From contig NZ_CP025086.1 of NCBI RefSeq assembly GCF_004135935.1, positions 1,612,001 through 1,676,000 on the forward strand: a DNA stretch of 64,000 bases. The letters run 5' to 3'. Below are positions 46,454 through 58,612 of the stretch, piece after piece; the first letter of the stretch is position 1; each line of letters starts with the position of its first letter. The notes beneath the pieces are model-generated. The model ran no database searches. It had not been told where the DNA came from and worked only from the letters and a program-made list of their open reading frames with translations. The position numbers were made by a program, and so were the translations under genes. This stretch comes from Methylovirgula ligni. Its GTDB lineage: Bacteria; Pseudomonadota; Alphaproteobacteria; Rhizobiales; Beijerinckiaceae.

Positions 46454-48694
46454 ATGGCTTATTCATTCTTGCGCGCGCTGCTGGCCAGCGCGTCTCTTCT
46501 GGCGGTTTCCACGGCCTACGCGCAGAGCGCGCCACCGGCGCAATCCTCTGGCTCGACATCGCAATCGACGAGCTTAAACACGCAGACGAATGCGAGTGCG
46601 CAGACAAATACAAATGCGCAGACGAACGCGGACGGGAGCATTCCGCTCGATACGGTCTCTGTCACTGCGACGATGACGGATGAAGCCGTCATCGATGCCA
46701 TGGGCGGTGTCAGCTCGGTCACGGAAGATCAGATCAAGACCTACCAGGCGCAGAACTTCAACGAGGTGCTGCAGGATGTTCCGGGCGTGACGATGCAGAG
46801 TTCGCCGAACGATCCGGGTCAGTCGATCAATATCCGCGGCATGCAGGACTTTGGCCGGGTCAATATCCTCGTCGATGGCGCGCGGCAGGATTATCAAATC
46901 TCCGGCCACAACGCGAACGGCACGTTCTATCTCGATCCGATGTTCGTGAGCGGTATCGACATCGTGCGCGGGCCGATCTCGAATATTTATGGTTCAGGCG
47001 CCATTGGCGGCGTCGCCTCGTTTTCGACGCGCGGTGTCGATGACGTGCTGCTGCCAAACGAATCCTACGGAGCAGTCGATACGGTCGGCTATGGTTCGAA
47101 CGGTGCTGGCGTCGTCAACAGCATTGCCGGCGCGGCCCGTATGGGCACCACGGCCGATGTCTATGGTCAGTTCCTCTATCGCGACACGACGTCTTATCAC
47201 GACGGCTCGGGCGCGCTCGTGTCCGATACCGGCAGTGGCCTGCTGGGCGGCCTCTTCAAGATGAACATCCGTCCCGCCGAGGGCCAGAAGATTTCCGGCG
47301 GGATACTCGTGCAGAACTATAGCTTCGACAATCTCAGCACCGCCGATGCCGGCCCGCTCTGGCACAACGACGTCAATACCAACCAATTCACTTTGGGTTA
47401 TACGGTCCAGCGACCCGACATTCCGTGGCTCGATTTTTCGATCAAGGCCTATGCGCAAATGACGCGGAACGATCAAACGGTCGAAAGCTTTGCGCAGGAT
47501 CCGGAGAACTCGGCGGTCTACCAGGCGCTTGGCGTCGCGCCGGGCGACGGTCTCTATGACATGATCCACACCTACGGCTTCGACGTGCATGACACCGCAC
47601 GCTTCAGCACGGCCATGCTGGATCATGCGGTGACCTTTGGCGGCGATGGGGTCTGGGATTTCGTCAATACACAGGACAACGCCGGCGGCTTCATCTCGGC
47701 GACGACCCCGAGTGGCCAACGCTCATTGAACGGCGCCTTCGTGCAGGACGAAATACGCTATTCGACCTGGCTCGACGTGCTGGGCGCCCTGCGCTTCGAT
47801 CATTACAGCCTCAACGGCGGCGGCACCGGTTCCAGCGGCTCACATCTCTCTCCGAAGATCACTGTTGGCATCACGCCGATTCGCGGCGTCCAGTTCTACG
47901 GAACCTATGCCGAAGGTTATCGCGCGCCGTCGGTGACGGAGACCCTGATCGACGGCCAGCATCCGTATCCCGCCTTCGACATCCTGCCCAACCCGAACCT
48001 CCGCCCCGAAGTGGCCAATGACGTCGAGGGCGGCGTCAACCTGAAATTCGATAATGTTGTCCGCCCCGATGACCAGATTCGCGTGAAGGCGGACGCCTAT
48101 CTGAACAAGGTCCACGATTACATCGATTTCGAGCCGGTCGGCGCGCCTTATTACGTATCTGTCATTCCCGGTGTGCCTTCCTCGTCCTGCACACCGGATG
48201 CGATCGAGGAGGGGCTCTGCTTCCCGATCACCTCCTATCAATACGTCAACATCGGCGAGGCGCAGATTTCTGGCGTCGAACTCGAAGGCACCTACGATTG
48301 GGGCGGGGGCTATTTCACGCTGGCCGGCACGCATACCAATGGCAAGGATCTTTCTTCGCCGTCCTTGCCGCTCTATACGATCGCGCCTGATCGTGTGAGC
48401 GGCACATTGGGCTTCCGTTTCCTCGACCAGAAATTGATCGTCGGCGGCCGACTCACCCTCGTCGATGCCAGCCAATGGTTCCCGTCGGGCGACGACAGCG
48501 GCCCTACATTCGCGCCAACGTCCTCCTATGCCCTGGTCGATCTTTTCGCGTCGTACAAGTATAATGACGACATCAGCGCCAACCTGACGGTCAAGAATCT
48601 GCTGAACAAGGATTACACGCAATATCTGGACACGCTGGCCAACCCTGGTATCCAGGTGCTGGGCTCGCTGACCGTCCGGTTCGCTTCGAAATAG
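46454..48694 (+). CDS. TonB-dependent haem/haemoprotein receptor
   Basis: A 746-residue outer-membrane receptor. It has a signal peptide (ending AYA-QS), a low-complexity Gln/Thr/Asn/Ser stretch (about residues 30-58), a TonB box-like DTVSVTAT, a plug domain (EVLQDVPGVTMQSSPNDPGQ; VRGPISNIYGSGAIGGVASF) and a 22-stranded barrel ending in LGSLTVRFASK with terminal aromatic pattern. It matches the TonB-dependent haemoglobin/transferrin/lactoferrin receptor family. Divergent from hemP-hmuTUV, so it is the outer-membrane entry point of this locus. Confidence 0.93.
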   Translation: MAYSFLRALLASASLLAVSTAYAQSAPPAQSSGSTSQSTSLNTQTNASAQTNTNAQTNADGSIPLDTVSVTATMTDEAVIDAMGGVSSVTEDQIKTYQAQNFNEVLQDVPGVTMQSSPNDPGQSINIRGMQDFGRVNILVDGARQDYQISGHNANGTFYLDPMFVSGIDIVRGPISNIYGSGAIGGVASFSTRGVDDVLLPNESYGAVDTVGYGSNGAGVVNSIAGAARMGTTADVYGQFLYRDTTSYHDGSGALVSDTGSGLLGGLFKMNIRPAEGQKISGGILVQNYSFDNLSTADAGPLWHNDVNTNQFTLGYTVQRPDIPWLDFSIKAYAQMTRNDQTVESFAQDPENSAVYQALGVAPGDGLYDMIHTYGFDVHDTARFSTAMLDHAVTFGGDGVWDFVNTQDNAGGFISATTPSGQRSLNGAFVQDEIRYSTWLDVLGALRFDHYSLNGGGTGSSGSHLSPKITVGITPIRGVQFYGTYAEGYRAPSVTETLIDGQHPYPAFDILPNPNLRPEVANDVEGGVNLKFDNVVRPDDQIRVKADAYLNKVHDYIDFEPVGAPYYVSVIPGVPSSSCTPDAIEEGLCFPITSYQYVNIGEAQISGVELEGTYDWGGGYFTLAGTHTNGKDLSSPSLPLYTIAPDRVSGTLGFRFLDQKLIVGGRLTLVDASQWFPSGDDSGPTFAPTSSYALVDLFASYKYNDDISANLTVKNLLNKDYTQYLDTLANPGIQVLGSLTVRFASK

Positions 48695-48760
48695 GCGGGG
48701 TAGCGTTCGCACCGCCATGTGATGTGCTAACGCGCTTGTCGCTCAGAAAGGGATGTACCC

Positions 48761-49102
48761 ATGTCGAATTTTATCGCGATGAACCGCTTCAAGGTGCTGA
48801 AAGACCAGGCCCATGCCTTCGAGCAGGTCTGGCTCACACGTACCTCGCGGCTTGACGAAGTCCCGGGCTTTGTCGAGTTTCGTCTGCTGAAGGGGCCGGA
48901 ACATGAGGACTACGTCCTCTATGCTTCGCATACCATTTGGGCCAACAAGGAGACCTTCACGGCCTGGACGAATTCCGAGCAGTTTCGTGTCGCGCATGCC
49001 CGCGCCGGCGATGAAAAGCCGAAGACCCTGGGCCATCCGGAATTCGAAGGCTTCGACGTGATCCAGACGCTGGATAATCCCAAACGTCACGCCGCGGAAT
49101 GA
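48761..49102 (+). CDS. IsdG-like haem-degrading monooxygenase (ABM fold)
   Basis: A 113-residue antibiotic-biosynthesis-monooxygenase-fold protein. The catalytic triad of IsdG-type haem oxygenases is conserved in place: Asn8 (FIAMNRF), Trp69 (FTAWTNSEQF) and His79 (RVAHAR), with the usual ten-residue Trp-His spacing. It would open imported haem and release iron in the cytoplasm. It follows the receptor gene on the same strand, completing the haem locus. Confidence 0.88.
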   Translation: MSNFIAMNRFKVLKDQAHAFEQVWLTRTSRLDEVPGFVEFRLLKGPEHEDYVLYASHTIWANKETFTAWTNSEQFRVAHARAGDEKPKTLGHPEFEGFDVIQTLDNPKRHAAE

Positions 49103-49437: not shown

Positions 49438-50784
49438 TTGTCGCTTCGGCTGCGCCTGATCGCTTCCATTGCCGGCGTCCTCGCTTTCACGCTGATTGTC
49501 GGCTGCCTTCTGATCTATTTCGACGCCGTGCAGAAGGTCGACACCGAAATGCAGGCCGCGGTCAGCGTCGGCATCCACACGGTGCAGAATGCGACGGACG
49601 ACGCCGAGGAGGCGGTGAATCCGCTCCGCCAGCTCGAGCTTCTCATTCAGGATTTCGACGGCAACCGCCATCTTCAGGCTTTTCTGATGGACGAGCGTGG
49701 CTTGCCGATCGCCAAATCGACATTGCTGATCCCCACCGAACCATCGCCGTTCTGGTTCAATCATCTGCTTGCGCGCGATCCTTATATCGTCCGCCTCGCG
49801 CTGCCGGCGCCGTTCGCCAAGTACGGCACGATTTTGCTGGTGAGCGATTCGCATAACGAGATCGACGAGGCCTGGAGCGATTTTCAACTGACGCTCGGCA
49901 TACTGGCGCTGTTTTGCATTCTCGTCCTGCTGCTGGTTTATTTCACTCTGGGGCGGCCGCTGGCGCTCTTGCAGAAGATGACGGCGGCCTTTCGTCAGAT
50001 CGGCCGGGGCGATTATAGCCCGCGCATCGAAGAACGCGGCGCGCCGGAGATTGTCGATCTCTCGCGCTGCTTCAACGACATGGTCGTCCGGCTCGACGAC
50101 ACCGAGCAGCAGAATGCGAAACTGCAGCAGCAGCTTACAAATGTTCAGGAAGAAGAGCGTGCGGATCTCGCGCGCGATCTGCACGACGAGATCGGTCCGC
50201 TGCTCTTTGCGCTCAACATCGACGTATCGACCTTGCAGCGCCAGGGCGCCGCAAGCACGGCGCCGGCGAGCGCACGGCTCGAAGCGATAGCGAGTACCGT
50301 CTCCGAAATCCAGCGCCATGTGCGCTCGATGCTGGGCAAATTGCGTCCCGCGGTGCTGCTCGATCTTGGGCTGGATCAAGCCGTCGGAAACCTGGTCCAG
50401 TTCTGGAGCCGGCGGCGTCCGGACGTCGATATTACGGTCGATCTCGATTGTGAAAGCTTCGGCGAGAGGCTCGATGCGACGGTCTACCGGATATTCCAGG
50501 AGGGATTGAATAACGCTCTGCGACACGGCAACCCGACGTCGATCGCGTTGCGGGCCAATATCGATGAGGAAAATCAGCTTGTCGTTGTGGTAAGTGATAA
50601 TGGCAGCGGGTTCTCCGCCGGGCACCGTCGTGCGGGTTATGGCCTCATCGGCATGCGCGAGCGTATCGATGCACTTGGTGGGTCGTTGGCGGTTTCCAAT
50701 CGATCCGAAGGCGAAGGCGCCGAGATCCTTGCAAAATTGCCTATCGACGCTCTCGAACTGGCAGCTTCGGAGACGGTGCCATGA
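49438..50784 (+). CDS. Sensor histidine kinase, NarL-type (HisKA_3)
   Basis: A 448-residue membrane sensor kinase. Two membrane helices (about 8-28 and 152-172) bracket a periplasmic domain of about 120 residues. A HAMP domain (LGRPLALLQKM) is followed by the HisKA_3 phosphoacceptor DLARDLHDEIGPLLFALN with His249, and a HATPase with FQEGLNNALRHGN, DNGSGF and GYGLIGMRERI. The start appears to be TTG at 49438. It overlaps the response regulator by four bases. The position beside the PQQ/XoxF genes suggests that it senses a signal connected with methanol or lanthanide metabolism, which is inference. Confidence 0.9.
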   Translation: MSLRLRLIASIAGVLAFTLIVGCLLIYFDAVQKVDTEMQAAVSVGIHTVQNATDDAEEAVNPLRQLELLIQDFDGNRHLQAFLMDERGLPIAKSTLLIPTEPSPFWFNHLLARDPYIVRLALPAPFAKYGTILLVSDSHNEIDEAWSDFQLTLGILALFCILVLLLVYFTLGRPLALLQKMTAAFRQIGRGDYSPRIEERGAPEIVDLSRCFNDMVVRLDDTEQQNAKLQQQLTNVQEEERADLARDLHDEIGPLLFALNIDVSTLQRQGAASTAPASARLEAIASTVSEIQRHVRSMLGKLRPAVLLDLGLDQAVGNLVQFWSRRRPDVDITVDLDCESFGERLDATVYRIFQEGLNNALRHGNPTSIALRANIDEENQLVVVVSDNGSGFSAGHRRAGYGLIGMRERIDALGGSLAVSNRSEGEGAEILAKLPIDALELAASETVP

Positions 50785-51398
50785 GGATTTTGATTATCGA
50801 CGATCATGTCGTGGTGCGCGAGGGCGTGCGCCGGCTTCTGGCCGCGCTGCCGGAGACGGAGGTGTTCGAGGCCTCGTCGGCGCGTGAGGCGCTTTCATTG
50901 TACCGCTCCAAAGCGCCTGACGTTCTGCTGCTCGATCTCAATCTTCCAAATTCGAGCGGCTTCGAGCTTCTGCGGCGGCTTCTTCTTGAAAACCGTCAGG
51001 TCAAGGTTGTTGTTCTCAGCATGCACGCCGAGCCGATCTACGTGTCGCGGACCTTGAACGCCGGCGCGCGTGGCTATGTCAGCAAGATGGCCTCGGCCGA
51101 TGAACTCATCGCCGCCGTGCGCGAGGTCGCAGCCGGCGGCCGTTATGTCGAGCGCGAGATCGCCGCACAATTGGTCGTCTCGCAATATGGCGGCGCAAAT
51201 CCGCTCGAAAAGCTGACGACACGCGAAATCGACATCGTGCGCCTGTTGGGAGAGGGAAAGAATTTCGCCGCCATCGCCGCGGCGCTGGGCATCACTTACA
51301 AGACGGTCGCTAACGCTTGCAGCATCATCAAAGGCAAGCTCGGCGTCGAGCGCACGTCGGATCTCATTCGACTGACCTACCAGATGCGGGAGCCGTAA
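50781..51398 (+). CDS. NarL/FixJ-family response regulator
   Basis: A 205-residue regulator with an intact receiver domain (IIDDHVVVREGV, phosphoacceptor Asp52 in LLLDLNLPNSSG, Lys in GYVSKMAS) and a LuxR-type helix-turn-helix (LTTREIDIVRLLGEGKNFAA, ALGITYKTVANACSIIKGKLGV). ATG overlaps the kinase TGA (ATGA). It converges on the PQQ-associated gene series, the two stops being nine bases apart. Comparable pairs regulate quinoprotein alcohol dehydrogenases in other bacteria. Confidence 0.93.
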   Translation: MRILIIDDHVVVREGVRRLLAALPETEVFEASSAREALSLYRSKAPDVLLLDLNLPNSSGFELLRRLLLENRQVKVVVLSMHAEPIYVSRTLNAGARGYVSKMASADELIAAVREVAAGGRYVEREIAAQLVVSQYGGANPLEKLTTREIDIVRLLGEGKNFAAIAAALGITYKTVANACSIIKGKLGVERTSDLIRLTYQMREP

Positions 51399-51414
51399 GC
51401 GGCCCGCTTACGGC
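51392..51414. terminator. Perfect inverted repeat spanning two convergent stop codons
   Basis: GCCGTAAGCGG (51392-51402), one base, then CCGCTTACGGC (51404-51414). Both TAA stops, of the response regulator and of the beta-propeller gene, lie inside the arms. It could fold on either transcript; no T-run follows, so it is a stalling or processing hairpin rather than a classical terminator. Confidence 0.6.
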
Positions 51415-52400
51415 ATCGCCACGACGCCCCACGGCAGATGGCCGACGTTGACCGATCGCACGGCCTTCAGAGTCGGGACATCGATCACGGTCAGGTCATT
51501 GGTGTTGCCATTGGCGACATAGAGTTTCGAGCCATCCGGGTCGAGTGCCATGTGCCACGGACGCTCGCCGACGAGGATATAAGACGTCGGGGCGAGCGTT
51601 GCCGTATCGACCACCGCAACACGGTTGGCGTGGCTGAGCGCGACGAAGGCGAGCTTTCCGTCCTTGGAAAATACGATGCCGACCGGCTGGATCAGCTCCG
51701 GCTGGACGCCCGGAATATCGAAATTGATCTTTCCGATGATCGTGCGTTTCTGGGCGTCGATCACCGAAACGGTGCCGCCGACCTCGGCGGAAACCCAGAC
51801 CTGTTTGCCGTCGTGCGTATATTGCGCCTCGCGTGGGCGTTGATCGACGAGAACATTGTCCTCGATCGTGAGCGTCTTCGTATTGATGAAATGCGCCATG
51901 CTCGTCAGCTCGGAGGTATTGACCACGGTGGCAAGGTCGGGGCTGATGCTCAGGCCCTCCGGCTCCGCGCCCACGCCCACTGTGCCGACAATCTTGCCGC
52001 TGGCGCGATCAATGACTGTAACTTGTGAGTCCTCCTCGTTGGCCGCGTAGACGCGCTTGCCCACCGGATCGATTGCAACGAGTTCCGGATCGAGCACGTC
52101 GGGGATGCTCCGCGAGACCTTGCGGGTCTTCGTGTCGATGACATCGAGCCGGTCGTCGTCGCCGATACAGACAAAAATCTCGCGATGATCCGGCGTGATC
52201 GCGATGCCGCGCGGCCGCGTGCCCACAGGGATGACAGTTTCGATGGCCATCGTCTTGCTGTCGAGTACGGTCACGGTATTGTCGCGCTCGCTCGTGACGA
52301 ACAGCGTCGCGGCGGAGGCTGGCGCAAAAGCCGGCGCAAGAAGAACCGCAAGGAGCGCGGCTAAACGATAGCATCTGATACGGGTGTTATTTGAGCGCAT
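51408..52400 (-). CDS. PQQ-dependent-catabolism-associated YVTN beta-propeller protein
   Basis: A 330-residue exported seven-bladed beta-propeller. A signal peptide (ending ASA-AT) precedes repeated YVTN-type blades: LFVTSERDNTVTVLDSKTM, RVYAANEEDSQVTVIDRAS, LAFVALSHANRVAVVDTATL, LYVANGNTNDLTVIDVPTLK. It fits the family named PQQ-dependent catabolism-associated beta-propeller. Function is unproven; it may bind a periplasmic partner of the quinoprotein. The ATG at 52400 lies inside the 3' end of the upstream binding-protein gene (14-bp overlap), showing coupled translation. Confidence 0.9.
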   Translation of the reverse strand: MRSNNTRIRCYRLAALLAVLLAPAFAPASAATLFVTSERDNTVTVLDSKTMAIETVIPVGTRPRGIAITPDHREIFVCIGDDDRLDVIDTKTRKVSRSIPDVLDPELVAIDPVGKRVYAANEEDSQVTVIDRASGKIVGTVGVGAEPEGLSISPDLATVVNTSELTSMAHFINTKTLTIEDNVLVDQRPREAQYTHDGKQVWVSAEVGGTVSVIDAQKRTIIGKINFDIPGVQPELIQPVGIVFSKDGKLAFVALSHANRVAVVDTATLAPTSYILVGERPWHMALDPDGSKLYVANGNTNDLTVIDVPTLKAVRSVNVGHLPWGVVAMP

Positions 52401-53610
52401 GGCATTTCGTCTCCGGCTCGTCATAGCCAAGCGTATCGGTATTGAAACGCGGATGGAGGAAGCCCTCGATGGGCGCGATCGAGACCAGCGCGCGAGGACC
52501 AACAAGAAGAATCGGCTGACGCAATTGCTGGTCCCAGCGTCGAAAGGAAAGGCCCTCGCCCTTGAAGGCGGCGATCGTGAATTTGTCGGAAAGTATGTAA
52601 TCCCGCAGGGTCTTCGCATCAGTCGCGCCAGTGCGGAGCATGGCCTCGCCGAAGATGCGCACGCCGAGCCAGGCCTCGTAATCGCGTTCGGTCATCGTCC
52701 GATGCGAGAGGCGCACGAAGCGCCGCTGCATTTCCTTGCCGGAAAATTCCGTAAAAGCGGGATGCCAGGCGGCCGCGACGAGCCCCTGGGTTCCGACGAC
52801 AGGCCGCGGATCGGTGCTATTGAAAAGCAGGTAGTCGCCGAAGGCCTCATCCTCGTCGACGACGAAAATCACGTCGTAATCAGGCAGGCTCTGTGTGAGC
52901 AGCGCCATCTGCTGCTCGGTCTGCTGATGGCCGGTATCGGTATCCCGGGTGCGGGCGTCGTAGGTGTAATTGCGCTCGGCGACGATTCGCGCACCGAAGC
53001 GCGATGCCGCACGCCGAACCGCCGCGACATAATCGAGATCGGCCGGTTTGACACCGTGAACGAAGAACCAATGGGTCCATTTCTTATAGAGAAGAAATTG
53101 CCCCAACGCGTCGGCGCGCATCGCGTTGCTGGGAGAAAGGTGGAAGATATTGCCGCGGCATTGCGCCCCGCGCAGCGTGTCGTCGCTCGTGCGGACGTCG
53201 AGAATAATGGCGTCTTTCGCCTCGGGAAGATCAGCGACGGCGAGGAGGTCCGTCGGTTCAAGATCGGCGATGATAAGCCGGTTTCCGGCGTCCAGCACTT
53301 TTTTGGCTTCGGGGACAATGTCGGCCTGCTCGGGAAGGATATCCTCCGCGAGATCGGTTTCCTGATTGATGAATTTTCCGGTGATGTTGTTATCGGCGGT
53401 GCCGACGCGCGCGCCGGCTATTCCCTTATCGCCGACAACCTGGTCGAGGAATGAGAGCGGCGTCGGCTCGCGGTAATTTTTGCCAAGATAGACAAGCCGC
53501 AAATGGATCGGCTGTTTGCTGGCTGGAGTTTGCGCTTCCAAAGGTGCCGCACTTGCCAAAAGGCTCGCGCAGCACCCGGCCAGCATGAAAGCGCATGTGG
53601 CTTTTGACAT
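52387..53610 (-). CDS. PQQ-associated branched-chain-type ABC substrate-binding protein
   Basis: A 407-residue periplasmic binding protein with signal peptide (ending LEA-QT) and two Rossmann-like lobes (IHLRLVYLGKNYREPTPLSF; IVAERNYTYDARTRDTDTGH; YDVIFVVDEDEAFGDYLLF). It matches the binding proteins described as part of PQQ-dependent alcohol dehydrogenase systems. In other genomes such systems include an ABC ATPase and permease; none is present in this window, so the ligand may be sensed rather than imported. ATG 53610 has GGAG upstream. 69 bp downstream of the XoxJ-ankyrin gene. Confidence 0.9.
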   Translation of the reverse strand: MSKATCAFMLAGCCASLLASAAPLEAQTPASKQPIHLRLVYLGKNYREPTPLSFLDQVVGDKGIAGARVGTADNNITGKFINQETDLAEDILPEQADIVPEAKKVLDAGNRLIIADLEPTDLLAVADLPEAKDAIILDVRTSDDTLRGAQCRGNIFHLSPSNAMRADALGQFLLYKKWTHWFFVHGVKPADLDYVAAVRRAASRFGARIVAERNYTYDARTRDTDTGHQQTEQQMALLTQSLPDYDVIFVVDEDEAFGDYLLFNSTDPRPVVGTQGLVAAAWHPAFTEFSGKEMQRRFVRLSHRTMTERDYEAWLGVRIFGEAMLRTGATDAKTLRDYILSDKFTIAAFKGEGLSFRRWDQQLRQPILLVGPRALVSIAPIEGFLHPRFNTDTLGYDEPETKCHALK

Positions 53611-53679
53611 CAAAGCTCCGGATCGATCCGACGGCCGAACAGGCCTATGGGCGTGCGAAGGGGAATTCAACCCATGAAC

Positions 53680-55461
53680 TCAGAGAGATTTTCCCTCAGC
53701 ACCTGCGGTCGGATCGGAGCGTTTCGATTTTGAGCTCGTGGCAGCGAGCACATCGAGAATTTGCGCGGCCGCCTGGTTGTCGTTGAGCACTGCGAGCTCG
53801 CGTGCCGTTCGGCCACCCGTCTCTTTGGCCGACAAATCCGCGCCAAGCTGCGCGAGGACGCCGATCACTGAGGGATTGTTGTGAACGGCGGCGACCATCA
53901 GTGCGCTCATGCCGGCGGTCGATTTGGCATTTACATCGGCCCCCTTCGTGACGAGAAGCCGCGCCATATCAACAACATTCACGCCTTCGACGAGAGCCAT
54001 CATACGATTGCGTGGCGGGAGCTCGCTTGCGGTAATCATCAGCGGCGTCAACTTCTCCGGCCCGACCGCCTTTGACACAGAAGCGCCAGCATTGACCAGG
54101 GCTTGAGCGGCAGCAAAGTGGCCGTCCGCCAGAGCATAGGCCAACGCGGTGTAGCCGTCCGCGGTTGTGGCGTCGACCTTGGCCTTGCGCGCGATAAGCA
54201 ACTGGATGGCGGGCACGTTGTCGCTTGAGGCGGCGTGCATCAGCGGCGTCCAGCCGTCATTGTCCCGCACCTCGATATTGGCACCGTCATCGAGGAGCTC
54301 GGAAATGACGTCCATATCGCGCTGCTCGGCGGCAATGTGGATCAGATATTGCCCCAGACCGTCGTGCGAGTTGACATCGGCACCCTTGCTGACCAGATAC
54401 CGGATACGCTCAAGATCGCTGTCGATCACGGCGCCATTCAACGCCGAGTTGAGATCAAGACCGTCTTTCAGCCATTGATCGACTGTGGCATCAGCGACAT
54501 GCGGCGCCTCGCCGGTCGTCGTGTCGGTCGGCTTGGTTAAATGAATTGCCGGCGTGAAATAGGTGCCATGCGCGGGTATGTCGCCCGAAATGATGCAGCT
54601 GCCGCATTCGACGAGCGGGACGCCATAATCCTCCAGGACTTTCTTGATCTCGTCGCGATGCTTCTGGATTGCATCGTCGAGCATATATTTGAGCACGGCA
54701 TCGGTGCTGCGCACGCCAAGCGCGAGATCGAACTCGAGCGGGATTGTGTCGTCCATCCGATTGACCGGTTGAATGGTCAATGGCTCGCCTCTTTTAGCCT
54801 TCACATAGCCGGCAAACGGACCCCAGACCGCCGCGACATCGAGATCGCCCTTCGCGACCTGCTCGACCTGCCACCAGGGCTGGTCCGCCAGGACGAGATC
54901 GCCATCATAAGTGACGGGATGCACATCGACCTTGGTGATACCACGCTTCGCAAGCGCCTCGCGCAGGGCGGAGGTTTCGTACACGCCGATGCGCAAATTT
55001 TTGAGCTGCGGATCGTCGAGCGATTTGAACGGCTTTATGCCCTTGTCGTTACGATAGGCGAGCACGTAGGTCGTGCGATATAACGGCAGCGTGGTGAGCG
55101 CGCCTTCCCAATTGGCGGGAACATCGATCAGGACGTCGCAGACGCTGTTGTCGAAGACTGCGCGTGTCGCACCGCGCTCGAGCGACGGCCGCCAGTAATA
55201 GGTGAGCTGCGCGCCAACCGCATTGGCGATAATCTCGGCGATCTTGTTCTCGAACCCCTCGCCTTTGAGATTGGAGAAGGGCAAATTGCCGCCATCGGCG
55301 CAAAACTTGATCTCCTCCATATGCATTTTAGCCGCAGCATTGCGCGCTTCCAGCTTTTGCGCGGAGGTCATGTCCTCGAAGTCGGTTTGGGCAAAGGCGG
55401 ATGGGAGGAATGCAAAATTTGCGACCACGACGGTCGCGATCGAGATACTGCGGATGTTCAT
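53680..55461 (-). CDS. xoxJ: XoxJ/MxaJ-like binding protein fused to ankyrin repeats
   Basis: A 593-residue exported protein in two parts. After the signal peptide (ending AFA-QT), residues 45-310 are the quinoprotein-dehydrogenase-associated binding protein family (XoxJ/MxaJ): IKFCADGGNLPFSNLKGEGF, VCDVLIDVPANWEGALTT, DVAAVWGPFAGYVKAKRG and the Cys pair ECGSC (285-289). Residues 335-575 are about six ankyrin repeats (SKGADVNSHDGLGQYLIHIA, DNDGWTPLMHAASSDN, TADGYTALAYALADG). XoxJ is thought to help activate or reconstitute XoxF; about 280-300 residues is usual, so the ankyrin part doubles it and probably adds a protein-protein interface in the periplasm. Confidence 0.9.
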   Translation of the reverse strand: MNIRSISIATVVVANFAFLPSAFAQTDFEDMTSAQKLEARNAAAKMHMEEIKFCADGGNLPFSNLKGEGFENKIAEIIANAVGAQLTYYWRPSLERGATRAVFDNSVCDVLIDVPANWEGALTTLPLYRTTYVLAYRNDKGIKPFKSLDDPQLKNLRIGVYETSALREALAKRGITKVDVHPVTYDGDLVLADQPWWQVEQVAKGDLDVAAVWGPFAGYVKAKRGEPLTIQPVNRMDDTIPLEFDLALGVRSTDAVLKYMLDDAIQKHRDEIKKVLEDYGVPLVECGSCIISGDIPAHGTYFTPAIHLTKPTDTTTGEAPHVADATVDQWLKDGLDLNSALNGAVIDSDLERIRYLVSKGADVNSHDGLGQYLIHIAAEQRDMDVISELLDDGANIEVRDNDGWTPLMHAASSDNVPAIQLLIARKAKVDATTADGYTALAYALADGHFAAAQALVNAGASVSKAVGPEKLTPLMITASELPPRNRMMALVEGVNVVDMARLLVTKGADVNAKSTAGMSALMVAAVHNNPSVIGVLAQLGADLSAKETGGRTARELAVLNDNQAAAQILDVLAATSSKSKRSDPTAGAEGKSL

Positions 55462-55483
55462 CGCGGGAACCTTCAAACTGGCA

Positions 55484-55525
55484 ACCAAAAACAAAAGACC
55501 CTGGCGCATGCGGGACGCGCCAGGG
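55484..55525 (-). terminator. Strong rho-independent terminator between xoxF and xoxJ
   Basis: On the minus strand a perfect 9-bp stem (CCCTGGCGC/GCGCCAGGG) with a 9-base loop is followed by TCTTTTGTTTTTGG. It starts 22 bases after the xoxF stop and ends before the xoxJ start at 55461. It should make xoxF the most abundant message and limit read-through to the accessory genes. Confidence 0.88.
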
Positions 55526-55546
55526 CTCGCAGTTAGAATCTGCTAA

Positions 55547-57412
55547 TCAATATTCACGGAACGTGAAGAGCGTGCCGCCCTGCGGGATCATGGGAAGGCC
55601 GGTGGCCTTCGCCATGGCCGTCGCACCAATCGCGCCGAACTTGTCGCTCATGTCGAGACCGGCAGTGACGGGCAGGCCGATCCAGCCGCCGATACCGCTC
55701 CAGACCGACACATATTGCTTGCCGTCGATCTTGTAGGTGATCGGGTTACCGATGATGCCCGAGGCAAGCTTACGATGCCAAAGGATCTTTCCGGTATCGC
55801 GATCGACCGCGCGGAAGTCACCGCCAAGGCTGCCGTAGAACGCCAGGCCGCCGTCCGTGACCAGAGCACCGCTCCAGTTCGGATACGGATCCGGGATGTC
55901 CCAGTCTACCTTACCCGTCAACACGTCGAACTTCTTGAAGCGACCGGCAACACCGGGCTTCTCTTCGTACATGTAGACGTTGGCGAAGACATAGACTGTG
56001 CCCTGCTGGAAGCTCACGCGCTGCTGCGGTTCGTCTTCCATGCACCAGTTGTTGGTCGAGCAATAGAATTTGCTCGGCTCCTTAGGGTCCACCGCGCAAG
56101 GTTGTTGATCCTTCCCGCCCATTGCCGACGGGCAGGCCTGCGTGTTGACGCCGACTTTCAGCGGCGAATGCTCGTAGACCTTGACCGGACGGCCGGTCTT
56201 CAGGTCGATCCGCTCCGCCCAGTTAACGGCGACGAACTTGCTCGCGCGCAGCAGCTCGCCAGTTACGCGGTTGAGCACGTAGGCAAAGCCGTTACGATCG
56301 AAGTGGACGAGAGCCTTGACCGGCTTGCCATCGATGTTGGGGAAGTCGACGAGGATGTTTTCGTTGACGCCGTCATAGTCCCATTGATCGAAAGGCGTCA
56401 TCTGGTAGTTCCAGGCGACCGTTCCGTCTTCCACGTGGCGGGCGAAAATGGTCATCGACCATTTGTTGTCCCACTTGCCGGAGTTACAACCCTCTTGCGT
56501 CGGGGGATTTTCACCGCAGCGGGTCGTCGGGCTCCAGTTGCCGGGGTTGCCGTTCGACTCATAGATGAGCTTCAGTTCCGGATCGTAGCTGTACCAGGCC
56601 CAGGGCGAACCGCCGCCACGCTTCCACTCGTCACCGGGATAGGTGAAGCCCTGGTGCTGGGTCAAATCATGGCGGTTATTGTCTTTGTTCGAGTCGGCCG
56701 TGATACCGATTTCCTCGTCTTTGCCGTTGCTCTCCTTGCTCCAGACCAGCTTGCCGGTCTTGAGGTCATAGGCGTCGAGACGGCCGCGGGCCGCGAATTC
56801 GTCACCGCCGAAGCCTGCGATGACCAGGTTTTCAGCGATCATCGGCGCGTTGGTCTGCGTCTCGCCATGCTCCGGATAGGCATGTTTGACGACCCAGATT
56901 TCCTTGCCGGTCTTGGCATTCAGGGCGATCACGAAGCCGTCGAGAGTTCCGAAGACAACTTCACCCTCGGCGTAGGAGAGACCGCGGTTCACTGTGTCGC
57001 AGCAGGCGCGCGGCACGGCCGAAATATCGCGATCCGTCTTCTTGTCGTAGTTCCAGATTTCCTTCGGATTGTCGGGATCCGACAGGTCGAGCGCCTGTAC
57101 GATGTTGGGCCACGCGCTGACCAAATACATCATCGGCTTGCCATCGACTTCGACGACGAGGGGCTGGCCCTCGTGGCCGCGCAGGGCGCCGCTCGACTGC
57201 GACCAGACCATCTGCAGCTTGTCGACATTGTCTTTATTGATGTCGCTGAGCGTGCTGTGGCGCTTCAGACCGAAATCGCCGCCCGTCACCGGCCAGAGAT
57301 TGGGGTTTTTTTCGCGCTCAACAATATCCGAATTGGCGAAGCTGGGACCGGCCATAGCGACTAGCCCAACCACAGCTCCTGCCAATAGCAAAAGCTTCCC
57401 TCTACATGTCAT
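55547..57412 (-). CDS. xoxF: Lanthanide-dependent PQQ methanol dehydrogenase XoxF
   Basis: A 621-residue periplasmic quinoprotein with signal peptide (cleavage after FA-NS, about residue 26) and the eight-bladed propeller of methanol dehydrogenases. Key features are the vicinal disulfide Cys137-Cys138 (RACCDTV) over PQQ, metal ligands Glu205 (GGDEFAARG) and Asn288 (ESNGNPGNW), catalytic Asp345 and the extra Asp347 (QWDYDGVNE) that marks lanthanide-binding XoxF rather than Ca-binding MxaF. GAAGAGGAA precedes the ATG. The lanmodulin-like gene is upstream; a terminator follows. No xoxG cytochrome is adjacent. The XoxF clade cannot be fixed without a tree. Confidence 0.95.
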   Translation of the reverse strand: MTCRGKLLLLAGAVVGLVAMAGPSFANSDIVEREKNPNLWPVTGGDFGLKRHSTLSDINKDNVDKLQMVWSQSSGALRGHEGQPLVVEVDGKPMMYLVSAWPNIVQALDLSDPDNPKEIWNYDKKTDRDISAVPRACCDTVNRGLSYAEGEVVFGTLDGFVIALNAKTGKEIWVVKHAYPEHGETQTNAPMIAENLVIAGFGGDEFAARGRLDAYDLKTGKLVWSKESNGKDEEIGITADSNKDNNRHDLTQHQGFTYPGDEWKRGGGSPWAWYSYDPELKLIYESNGNPGNWSPTTRCGENPPTQEGCNSGKWDNKWSMTIFARHVEDGTVAWNYQMTPFDQWDYDGVNENILVDFPNIDGKPVKALVHFDRNGFAYVLNRVTGELLRASKFVAVNWAERIDLKTGRPVKVYEHSPLKVGVNTQACPSAMGGKDQQPCAVDPKEPSKFYCSTNNWCMEDEPQQRVSFQQGTVYVFANVYMYEEKPGVAGRFKKFDVLTGKVDWDIPDPYPNWSGALVTDGGLAFYGSLGGDFRAVDRDTGKILWHRKLASGIIGNPITYKIDGKQYVSVWSGIGGWIGLPVTAGLDMSDKFGAIGATAMAKATGLPMIPQGGTLFTFREY

Positions 57413-57511
57413 GACGTTTCCTCTTCCACTAGGGACAGCCCCGCCCGATGCGGCATTGGCCGATCGAGCGCAGACGTTACGGCGCGTGAAGTCTTTTATG
57501 TCAGGGGTAAA

Positions 57512-57531
57512 CGTCCGCAGTTTCGCGGACG
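57512..57531. other. Hairpin in the xoxF upstream region
   Basis: CGTCCGC-N6-GCGGACG, a 7-bp perfect inverted repeat about 100 bp before the xoxF start. A second one (TCGGGAG-TTT-CTCCCGA, 57638-57654) lies just after the lanmodulin-like stop. Either could be a terminator remnant, an mRNA structure or a regulator site. Confidence 0.45.
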
Positions 57532-57702
57532 CCTCTTTCTGCGGCGCGTTCTAGGTGCGCGTCCTACTTTTGCGTGCCATGTTCCAATGCTAGTCGGGAC
57601 TAAAGGAATGGAGCTATGGAAGGCTTACCTAAAGTGCTCGGGAGTTTCTCCCGAAGCGACGGCCGGTGACGCATAAGGCAGCAGCACTTGTCGGTGGCGG
57701 CC

Positions 57703-58077
57703 CTATTGAAGCAGTCGCAGCAAGGCCTGTCCGGCATGGCTTCGGAGTTCTTTGGCGTCGAGCACGCCGTCATTATTGGTGTCGGCGGCATTGAACAGCT
57801 TTTCTGCCATCTCGACATATTCTTGTTTGCTCAGCGTTTTGTCGGCATCCGGATCGGCGGCGAGAAATGCATCCTTGCTCAGCCGCCCCTTGGCTTCGCT
57901 ATAATCAAGTGTCGTGTCGCTATCTTTGTTGAGCCTCTCGAAGGCCGCCGCGGCCGCGGCTTCCATCTGGGCGAGATCGAGCGTCCCGTCCACAGTATGG
58001 GCAACGGGGGCGGCCAGCGTCGGACCGCCGAGCGGCGCGAAGAAGACTATCGACGCGAATATTCTTCCCAGGCGCAT
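57703..58077 (-). CDS. Lanmodulin-like EF-hand protein
   Basis: A 124-residue exported protein (signal peptide to about Ala23). It aligns without gaps to lanmodulin across four EF-hand positions. Loops: EF2 Asn50-Glu61 (NKDSDTTLDYSE), EF3 Asp75-Glu86 (DPDADKTLSKQE), EF4 Asp99-Glu110 (DTNNDGVLDAKE); EF1 (26-37) keeps only DGTLD and lacks the first acidic ligands and Glu12. Adjacent loops are separated by 12, 13 and 12 residues, the unusually short spacing of lanmodulin, and EF3 has the lanmodulin Pro at position 2. Position directly upstream of xoxF supports a lanthanide role. ATG 58077 follows GGAGCAAG. Metal preference is inferred, not shown. Confidence 0.8.
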   Translation of the reverse strand: MRLGRIFASIVFFAPLGGPTLAAPVAHTVDGTLDLAQMEAAAAAAFERLNKDSDTTLDYSEAKGRLSKDAFLAADPDADKTLSKQEYVEMAEKLFNAADTNNDGVLDAKELRSHAGQALLRLLQ

Positions 58078-58255
58078 CCGTACTTGCTCCGTCAGCGAGC
58101 GGCTTTCCGGGAGGATTATCCTCCAAATCACGGAGCGCCCTGAAGCGGATGTTTTTGAAGGGATTCCGGGAGATTTTGGCAGGCGAACAGTCAATATCGC
58201 CCAAACCGCCTCAGCGTTCGCGAGCGAAAACCGCGCGGGGATTGGCAAGCACCGC

Positions 58256-58612
58256 CTAAAGAAGGCCGAGATGAAGCTTGGCCTCGTCCGACATTTTCGA
58301 TTGGTCCCAGGGTGGATCGAAGACCAGTTTGACCGCAACCGTGCGGACGCCGGGTGCGGCGCGGACGGCTTCCTCGACAGAACGCACAATCTCGCTCGCG
58401 ACCGGGCATCCCGGTGCTGTCAAAGTCATATCGATCTCGATGTCCGGTCCCTTTCCTGCGATACGGTAAATGAGCCCGAGATCGTAAATGTTGAGCGGAA
58501 TTTCCGGATCGTGCACGGTCCGCAAGGCTGCGATCACCGTCTCCGCCAAAGGATGCAACGTTTCGGACGCCGGCAGCCCTTCGGTTTCGGTGTCGAGAGA
58601 CGCGGAGTCCAT
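58256..58612 (-). CDS. sufT: SUF-associated MIP18/DUF59 protein SufT
   Basis: A 118-residue protein of the DUF59 (MIP18/PaaD) family with TVHDPEIPLNIYDLGLIY and the reactive-Cys loop LTAPGCPVASEI. SufT proteins help mature Fe-S proteins with the SUF machinery. Its ATG overlaps the sufS TAA (TAATG). It is the last gene of the suf operon here; no sufA-type carrier gene follows. Confidence 0.92.
   Translation of the reverse strand: MDSASLDTETEGLPASETLHPLAETVIAALRTVHDPEIPLNIYDLGLIYRIAGKGPDIEIDMTLTAPGCPVASEIVRSVEEAVRAAPGVRTVAVKLVFDPPWDQSKMSDEAKLHLGLL

Follow-up and report, generated by a model that had tools for sequence, protein, structure and literature searches.

A lanmodulin relative with a lost first EF hand, encoded upstream of a xoxF1-lutAB group in Methylovirgula ligni

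Lanmodulins are recognized by four EF hands separated by 12-13 residues and by a proline at position 2 (Pro-2) of at least one EF hand, and a length below 200 residues has served as a search criterion; for calmodulin-like proteins the separation is about 25 residues (PMC10232371). In Mex-LanM, EF1-3 are described as binding with picomolar affinity and EF4 as binding weakly. The loops pair as EF2/EF3 and EF1/EF4, the former pair being thought the tighter; Hans-LanM completes its conformational change with two equivalents and has a weak third site (PMC10232371). Methanol growth reportedly continued after deletion of lanM in Methylobacterium aquaticum (PMC9260416).

In Methylocella silvestris BL2, xoxF1, xoxJ and homologues of LutA and LutB are described as lying side by side; xoxF1 also adjoins a LutH homologue, and the group includes xoxG and a TonB receptor (PMC9291206). 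The role of this XoxF1 neighbourhood is called unclear in that report, and the LanM of the strain (Msil_0271) is encoded apart from the xoxF1 group (PMC9291206). In the 64,000-nucleotide stretch of the Methylovirgula ligni genome analysed here (the window, to which positions refer unless prefixed by a contig or locus), a LanM relative, EFP, is instead encoded upstream of such a group. Its main features are the following.

57703-58077, minus strand: EFP, lanmodulin-like EF-hand protein of 124 residues (open reading frame with profile and PDB homology)
58087-58090, minus strand: GGAG, possible ribosome-binding site of EFP (from the sequence)
58009-58077, minus strand: likely signal peptide of EFP, residues 1-23 (read by eye)

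The reading frame of EFP is intact and occupies exactly the interval 57703-58077 given in an earlier note on this DNA, which left out that it lies on the minus strand. The ATG (58077) is preceded by GGAG, 10-13 nt on its 5' side. The GC content at the three codon positions (0.67/0.42/0.68) is similar to that of the adjacent sufT (0.66/0.44/0.69), and read on the plus strand the same interval gives 0.68/0.42/0.67, as on the minus strand. Thus, GC content fits a coding sequence yet cannot choose the strand, and it is homology that chooses the minus strand. A signal peptide, also claimed in the earlier note, is visible by eye at the N-terminus (MRLGRIFASIVFFAPLGGPTLAA), and EFP is probably secreted. 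A longer form starting from TTG at 58389 (228 residues) was rejected in favour of the ATG at 58077, which has both the ribosome-binding site and the signal-peptide-like start. A single-sequence structure model of EFP (mean pLDDT 45) was too poor for use.

A phmmer search of the PDB gave four strong matches to EFP, all of the LanM type: 8fns (E 5.7e-22), 6mi5 (8e-22), 9pi2 (1.9e-18) and 8dq2 (1e-16); the fifth match reached only 5.2e-5. In the PDB table 6mi5 is named 'Lanmodulin' and 9pi2 is a lanthanum-bound protein; we take 8fns to be Mex-LanM and 8dq2 to be Hans-LanM. Judged by these matches, the resemblance of EFP to lanmodulins is far beyond chance. Similarly, the LanM profile of NCBIfam (NF053806, an equivalog) matches EFP at 119.5 bits (E 1e-34), under its cut-off of 135. 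Across 199 genomes of the family, LanM-type hits to this profile scored 93-186 bits, 12 of them, EFP included, below 135. All remaining hits at E <= 1e-10 scored at most 58.8 bits, and the 58.8-bit hit is a contig-end fragment that may itself be a LanM.

Two trees were built. Both a quick tree of 111 rows and a careful tree of 57 hand-picked rows from which the EF1 columns had been removed put EFP among the LanMs of the main (Mex-type) group and apart from the Hans cluster. The description of EFP as a divergent lanmodulin relative is borne out by this nesting, and a placement among ordinary calmodulin-like proteins was not seen against the two generic EF-hand outgroup rows of the quick tree. 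The quick tree joins EFP, with a support of 82, to two Methylocella-type LanMs (L023 in genome G211 and L025 in G254; the genus name is inferred). Unlike EFP, both have an intact EF1; the grouping is lost once the EF1 columns are removed, and the careful tree leaves the exact position open. Neither of these two loci has a xoxF-like gene within about 10 kb. Holding EFP with the other LanMs of its own genus was neither rejected nor supported by an AU test (p 0.22). The EFP branch is long in both trees (0.77 against a median of 0.076 in the quick tree, 0.69 against 0.17 in the careful one). The nearest relative is L023, with about 63% identity over the mature region, and no close ortholog of EFP was found in the genus. 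A scan of named genomes with EFP returned three loci (36-49% identity over parts), which were taken as generic EF-hand proteins.

It is very improbable that EFP is an ordinary calcium binder of the calmodulin-like kind whose likeness to LanM is convergent. Such a reading could draw on Pfam, where only generic EF-hand families match EFP above their cut-offs, and on position 9 of EF3, which is Ser rather than Asp; Ser or Thr, however, occupies that position in 68 of 125 relatives, whose own metal preference is putative. A 2025 survey flagged one LanM-like sequence of M. ligni as having a calmodulin-like motif, which may be another sequence (PMC12482762). The spacers of EFP, at 12/13/12 residues, are in the lanmodulin range and far from about 25, and with the LanM-type strong matches and the tree position inside the LanM group they led to the rejection of a calmodulin-like protein. 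EF3 of EFP also has Pro-2, and its 124 residues are under the 200 used in lanmodulin searches. Of the four-EF-hand hallmark, EFP has EF2-4 complete and EF1 incomplete. Given the incomplete EF1 and a profile score under the cut-off, EFP is best described as an EF1-less lanmodulin relative, related by descent, rather than as a typical LanM. The four EF-hand positions are as follows.

57967-58002, minus strand: EF1 remnant AHTVDGTLDLAQ, residues 26-37, ligands 1, 3 and 12 lost (alignment)
57895-57930, minus strand: EF2 loop NKDSDTTLDYSE, residues 50-61, ligands intact
57820-57855, minus strand: EF3 loop DPDADKTLSKQE, residues 75-86, with Pro-2 and Ser-9
57748-57783, minus strand: EF4 loop DTNNDGVLDAKE, residues 99-110, ligands intact; its counterpart is described as the weak site in Mex-LanM (PMC10232371)

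The lanmodulin layout read from the sequence in the earlier note holds: the loops are in register, and EFP aligns without gaps with the Mex-LanM of Methylorubrum extorquens (6mi5, 8fns) over 95 residues. The spacers of 12, 13 and 12 residues, for which the EF1 remnant was treated as a loop, are the same as in Mex-LanM and occur in 123 of the 126 proteins aligned, EFP among them. The C-terminal helix is similar as well, and EF3 has in both proteins Pro-2 (DPDADK in EFP, as the earlier note had it), Asp at positions 1, 3 and 5 and Glu-12. Unlike Mex-LanM, EFP has an EF1 without ligands 1, 3 and 12, Pro-2 in one loop rather than four, Ser-9 and Lys-6 in EF3, and an N-terminus about 10 residues shorter. 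EF2 of EFP shares Asn-1, Thr-6 and Thr-7 with EF2 of Hans-LanM (8dq2) and of the Ancylobacter lacus protein (9pi2); at position 9, however, it has Asp where those two have Glu, and EFP groups with neither.

Some of these residues had been singled out as oddities. Asn is indeed present at position 1 of EF2, but 9 of 125 relatives share it, and although only one loop of EFP has Pro-2, the same is true of 36 of the 125, with 14 more having none. Lys at position 6 of EF3 occurs in 27 of 125. The loss of the first ligands of EF1 is another matter: ligands 1 and 3 are gone, as had been claimed, and so is ligand 12, leaving Asp-5 alone of the ligand positions 1, 3, 5 and 12. All four positions hold a residue of ligand type (D, N, E or S, depending on the position) in 125 of 125 aligned relatives, and EF1 is likewise kept in each of 11 more relatives, which belong to other families of the order and were read by eye. 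EFP is the sole exception among the 137 proteins examined, a rarity that holds for a set of relatives collected because they resemble EFP or match the LanM profile. The 125 aligned relatives are the hits that were fetched, fewer than all those listed; with EFP they make 126 rows, of which 124 are distinct over the C-terminal 95 residues. One locus (L018) was dropped before the counts for want of a usable hit, and three more (L019, L020 and L022) were excluded because they were judged to be generic EF-hand proteins. A later search gave 18 new loci, the 11 read by eye and seven that repeat genes already read. Among the matches listed for the open-access literature, outside which much subscription literature falls, no title or opening of an abstract reports a natural LanM whose EF1 is non-functional.

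A frameshift or mis-assembly of EF1 was considered and rejected: the other two frames contain no EF-hand loop over 240 nt around the start, and the signal peptide continues straight into the EF1 remnant. Compared with its nearest relatives, EFP lacks about five residues at the mature N-terminus, in keeping with a small deletion that extends into EF1. From its residues, EF1 of EFP is judged to be dead. A second LanM type, with Ser-9 in EF1 and 11 residues between EF2 and EF3, occurs in three Methylocella-like genomes (L209-L211, in G108, G134 and G187).

The genome contains one other match to the LanM profile at E <= 1, the gene at C1:424389-424730 (134.1 bits). Its product belongs to the same family as EFP (48% identity) and, unlike EFP, has four loops with ligands and Pro-2 in none; no match to the xoxF or lut genes of the window lies within about 10 kb of it. 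With such a gene present, EFP could be a decaying lanM duplicate, relieved of constraint by its four-loop counterpart, in which the loss of EF1 is the first visible decay. The long branch and the lack of a close ortholog found in the genus are in keeping with decay, but we consider it unlikely. The frame of EFP is intact and has a ribosome-binding site, the ligands of EF2-4 are kept, and the identity to the nearest relatives (about 60%) implies time enough for further decay. Among the columns in which 90% or more of the relatives agree, EFP departs from the consensus at 3 of 6 inside EF1 and at 2 of 22 outside it, so that 20 of 22 outside columns are kept. The relatives have a median of 0 departures outside EF1, with none in 71 of 125 and two or more in 27 of 125. 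Outside EF1, the sequence of EFP thus appears slightly looser than that of most relatives and far from decayed. Three relatives (L016, L207 and L212) also depart at 3 of 6 consensus columns in EF1, yet keep its ligand-type residues.

Downstream of EFP on the same strand lie, in this order, xoxF1, a xoxJ-ankyrin fusion, lutA and lutB, faced by the genes of a two-component system.

57611-57653, minus strand: 43-nt element CGGGAGAAACTCCCG...TTTAGGTAA...TAGCTC, also found upstream of two orthologous xoxF genes without EFP
55547-57412, minus strand: XoxF1-type PQQ methanol dehydrogenase, 621 residues (WDYDG and GGDEF motifs, profile and PDB matches)
53680-55509, minus strand: XoxJ/MoxJ-like substrate-binding protein fused to ankyrin repeats (domain matches)
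52387-53670, minus strand: LutA-like substrate-binding protein (TIGR03863), start codon uncertain
51408-52619, minus strand: LutB-like beta-propeller (TIGR03866), true start probably further in
50781-51398, plus strand: LuxR-type response regulator, oriented toward the cluster and retained beside it in three genus relatives
49438-50784, plus strand: histidine kinase, oriented toward the cluster and retained beside it in three genus relatives

The adjacency to xoxF pointed out in the earlier note is real: xoxF lies 290 bp downstream of EFP. The LutB-like open reading frame overlaps lutA, hence its probable start further in. The TIGR03863 and TIGR03866 proteins can be read as LutA and LutB by analogy with the M. 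silvestris neighbourhood. Unlike the M. silvestris group with its xoxG, the genes at 51408-58612 include no match to a c-type cytochrome family. Directly upstream of EFP is a SUF-type iron-sulfur assembly gene (sufT), and beyond it are further suf genes, as read by eye.

The neighbouring dehydrogenase scored 794 bits against 7o6z and 555, 488 and 476 bits against 4mae, 6dam and 6oc5, respectively. Of these, 7o6z is presumably the XoxF1 structure of the study cited below, and we take 4mae to be XoxF2. The motif WDYDG is present, with an Asp two residues after the presumed catalytic Asp, and GGDEF is found where 4mae, 6dam and 6oc5 have SGGEF. An Asp in place of Gly beside the metal-binding Glu is said to mark XoxF1 (PMC8546591). 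GGDEF is in line with this diagnostic Asp (residue numbers unmatched), and by its scores and motifs the dehydrogenase is of the XoxF1 type. In all, the genome has three XoxF1-like copies (100, 71 and 72% identical to that of the window) and two PQQ dehydrogenases at 40-42%; according to the 2025 survey, Methylovirgula ligni BW863 is the only methane-oxidizer genome with multiple (three) copies of xoxF1 (PMC12482762).

The xoxF1-xoxJ-lutA-lutB cluster occurs twice in the genome, at 51408-57412 of the window and at C1:535300-555200 (L121). In the second copy, xoxJ and lutA are separated by a cytochrome c gene (L121:6251-6952); none is seen in the copy in the window. The fusion of XoxJ to several ankyrin repeats has been retained by three genus relatives in their xoxF1 clusters (68-70% identity); it is also present in the second cluster of the genome (43%) and in G187, a genome of another genus (49%).

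Three genus relatives (G002, G008 and G009) each have an orthologous xoxF1 cluster, at 86-90% identity, in which the kinase, the regulator, LutB, LutA and the XoxJ-ankyrin protein are all represented; the genes in G008 are on two contigs and were taken as one cluster. No LanM-like gene was detected by tblastn upstream of xoxF in G002, nor in the 3.7 kb upstream in G008; the contig of G009 ends inside xoxF, so that the comparison covers its cluster and not the region upstream of xoxF. In the more distant cluster of G187 (XoxF 72%, XoxJ-ankyrin 49%, LutA 53% and LutB 53% to the window), the region upstream of xoxF is likewise free of LanM-like genes; past the opposite end of this xoxF1-xoxJ-lutA-lutB cluster, at a distance of about 8 kb, there is a lanM with four loops, which belongs to the second LanM type described above. 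Conservation of the neighbour pair in related genomes, put forward as a check in the earlier note, therefore failed in all three related clusters in which the region is visible, and a conserved lanM-xoxF pair was rejected.

The 43-nt element contains the palindrome CGGGA-N5-TCCCG and lies about 200-240 nt ahead of xoxF; it is conserved in front of the xoxF genes of G002 and G008. Since the element is kept where EFP is absent, it belongs to xoxF and not to EFP; it may bind a regulator of xoxF1. The palindrome occurs at five sites in the whole genome. Three precede xoxF genes (the one here and a pair at 546488-546525), and two lie beside unrelated-looking genes. A control read in reverse gave 11 sites, that is, no overall excess. 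Within 57300-58300, a search of Rfam gave no match and a promoter scan gave no sigma-70-like site. Taken together, the absent pair and the element that xoxF has of its own argue against an obligatory EFP-XoxF unit. The suggestion that EFP is a donor for XoxF is likewise unsupported so far.

A different association recurs. Among 39 loci around the lanM genes of relatives (drawn from best hits and the genus, some on short contigs), lanM lies directly upstream of lutA-lutB on the same strand in seven, with 14-179 bp between match ends. These seven come from two genera (g66 and g18). A full-length LutA-like gene occurs within about 10 kb in eight of the 39 loci, and a XoxF-like gene of 37-38% identity in three. 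Proximity of lanM to lutAB is a recurrent theme, and here xoxF1-xoxJ stands in between. No other LanM-like gene in this analysis lies directly beside a xoxF1-lutAB group.

Overall, we consider it fairly probable that EFP is an EF1-less lanmodulin offshoot, probably secreted, that acts as a reduced-capacity LanM serving the XoxF1/LutAB system. It had been proposed as a three-site lanmodulin, and EF2-4 are indeed intact with EF1 lost; by analogy with Mex-LanM and Hans-LanM, however, two tight sites (EF2/EF3) and a weak EF4 are more probable than three equal ones. As EFP keeps EF2, EF3 and EF4, it would be expected to bind two lanthanide ions tightly and one weakly. EFP would be mostly disordered without metal in the periplasm and would fold when the EF2/EF3 pair binds its two ions tightly; EF4 would add the weak site, and the EF1 remnant might have a packing role only, or none. 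EFP might then buffer or shuttle lanthanide for the adjacent XoxF1/LutAB system. Such a trafficking role is plausible from the gene neighbourhood, and direct handover of metal from EFP to XoxF1 would be its least certain step.

Several findings count against this account. The profile score is below the cut-off, as are those of 11 other LanM-type hits. EFP is a single instance, with a nearest relative at only about 63%, a long branch and two departures outside EF1; EF1 departs equally from consensus in L016, L207 and L212, and a LanM-like gene is missing upstream in 3 of 3 clusters. In addition, LanM and XoxF1/LutAB of M. silvestris are described as responding oppositely to lanthanum (PMC9291206).

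The last of these findings allows a narrower reading, a special case of the reduced-capacity LanM rather than an exclusive alternative. EFP would be a form for lanthanide scarcity, co-regulated with XoxF1/LutAB and not with ordinary LanM, and active in scavenging or sensing at low metal. Lanthanum was reported to lower XoxF1, XoxJ1, XoxG1 and the neighbouring LutBAH homologues in M. silvestris BL2 and to raise LanM 39- and 26-fold (PMC9291206). The solitary position of EFP beside xoxF1-lutAB and the two-component system facing the group agree with this reading. Nevertheless, the 290 bp between EFP and xoxF hold an element conserved where EFP is absent, and shared regulation is only putative; specialization for scarcity is possible but doubtful. 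It may also be suggested, quite tentatively, that EFP is a natural minimal lanmodulin, cut down to the EF2/EF3 switch and a weak EF4 and placed with XoxF1-LutAB, which would carry fewer ions and differ in their release or handover.

Returning to the reduced-capacity LanM, EFP offers a natural test of whether the EF2/EF3 pair is enough by itself for lanthanide selectivity and for the switch in fold, and the XoxF1 neighbourhood provides a testable context for it. Four EF hands were required of the proteins retained in a 2023 survey (PMC10232371), and the 2025 survey of the lanthanome used a single pattern that covers all four loops (PMC12482762). Owing to this four-EF requirement, EF1-less forms such as EFP were probably passed over in published screens, although EFP may already stand, uncharacterized, in the tree of the 2025 survey (PMC12482762).

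Two further sets of genes may be mentioned. An ATPase over the TIGR03864 (PQQ-type ABC) cut-off is encoded at C1:812400-814651 (L196), adjoined by a permease-like open reading frame and a cytochrome c gene; the lut-like set thus seems to be split in this genome, with this ATPase far from lutA and lutB. Within the window, a TonB-dependent receptor, whose best model is the haem-receptor family TIGR01785, lies with an adjoining ABM-domain protein at 46454-49102; the two probably serve haem uptake.
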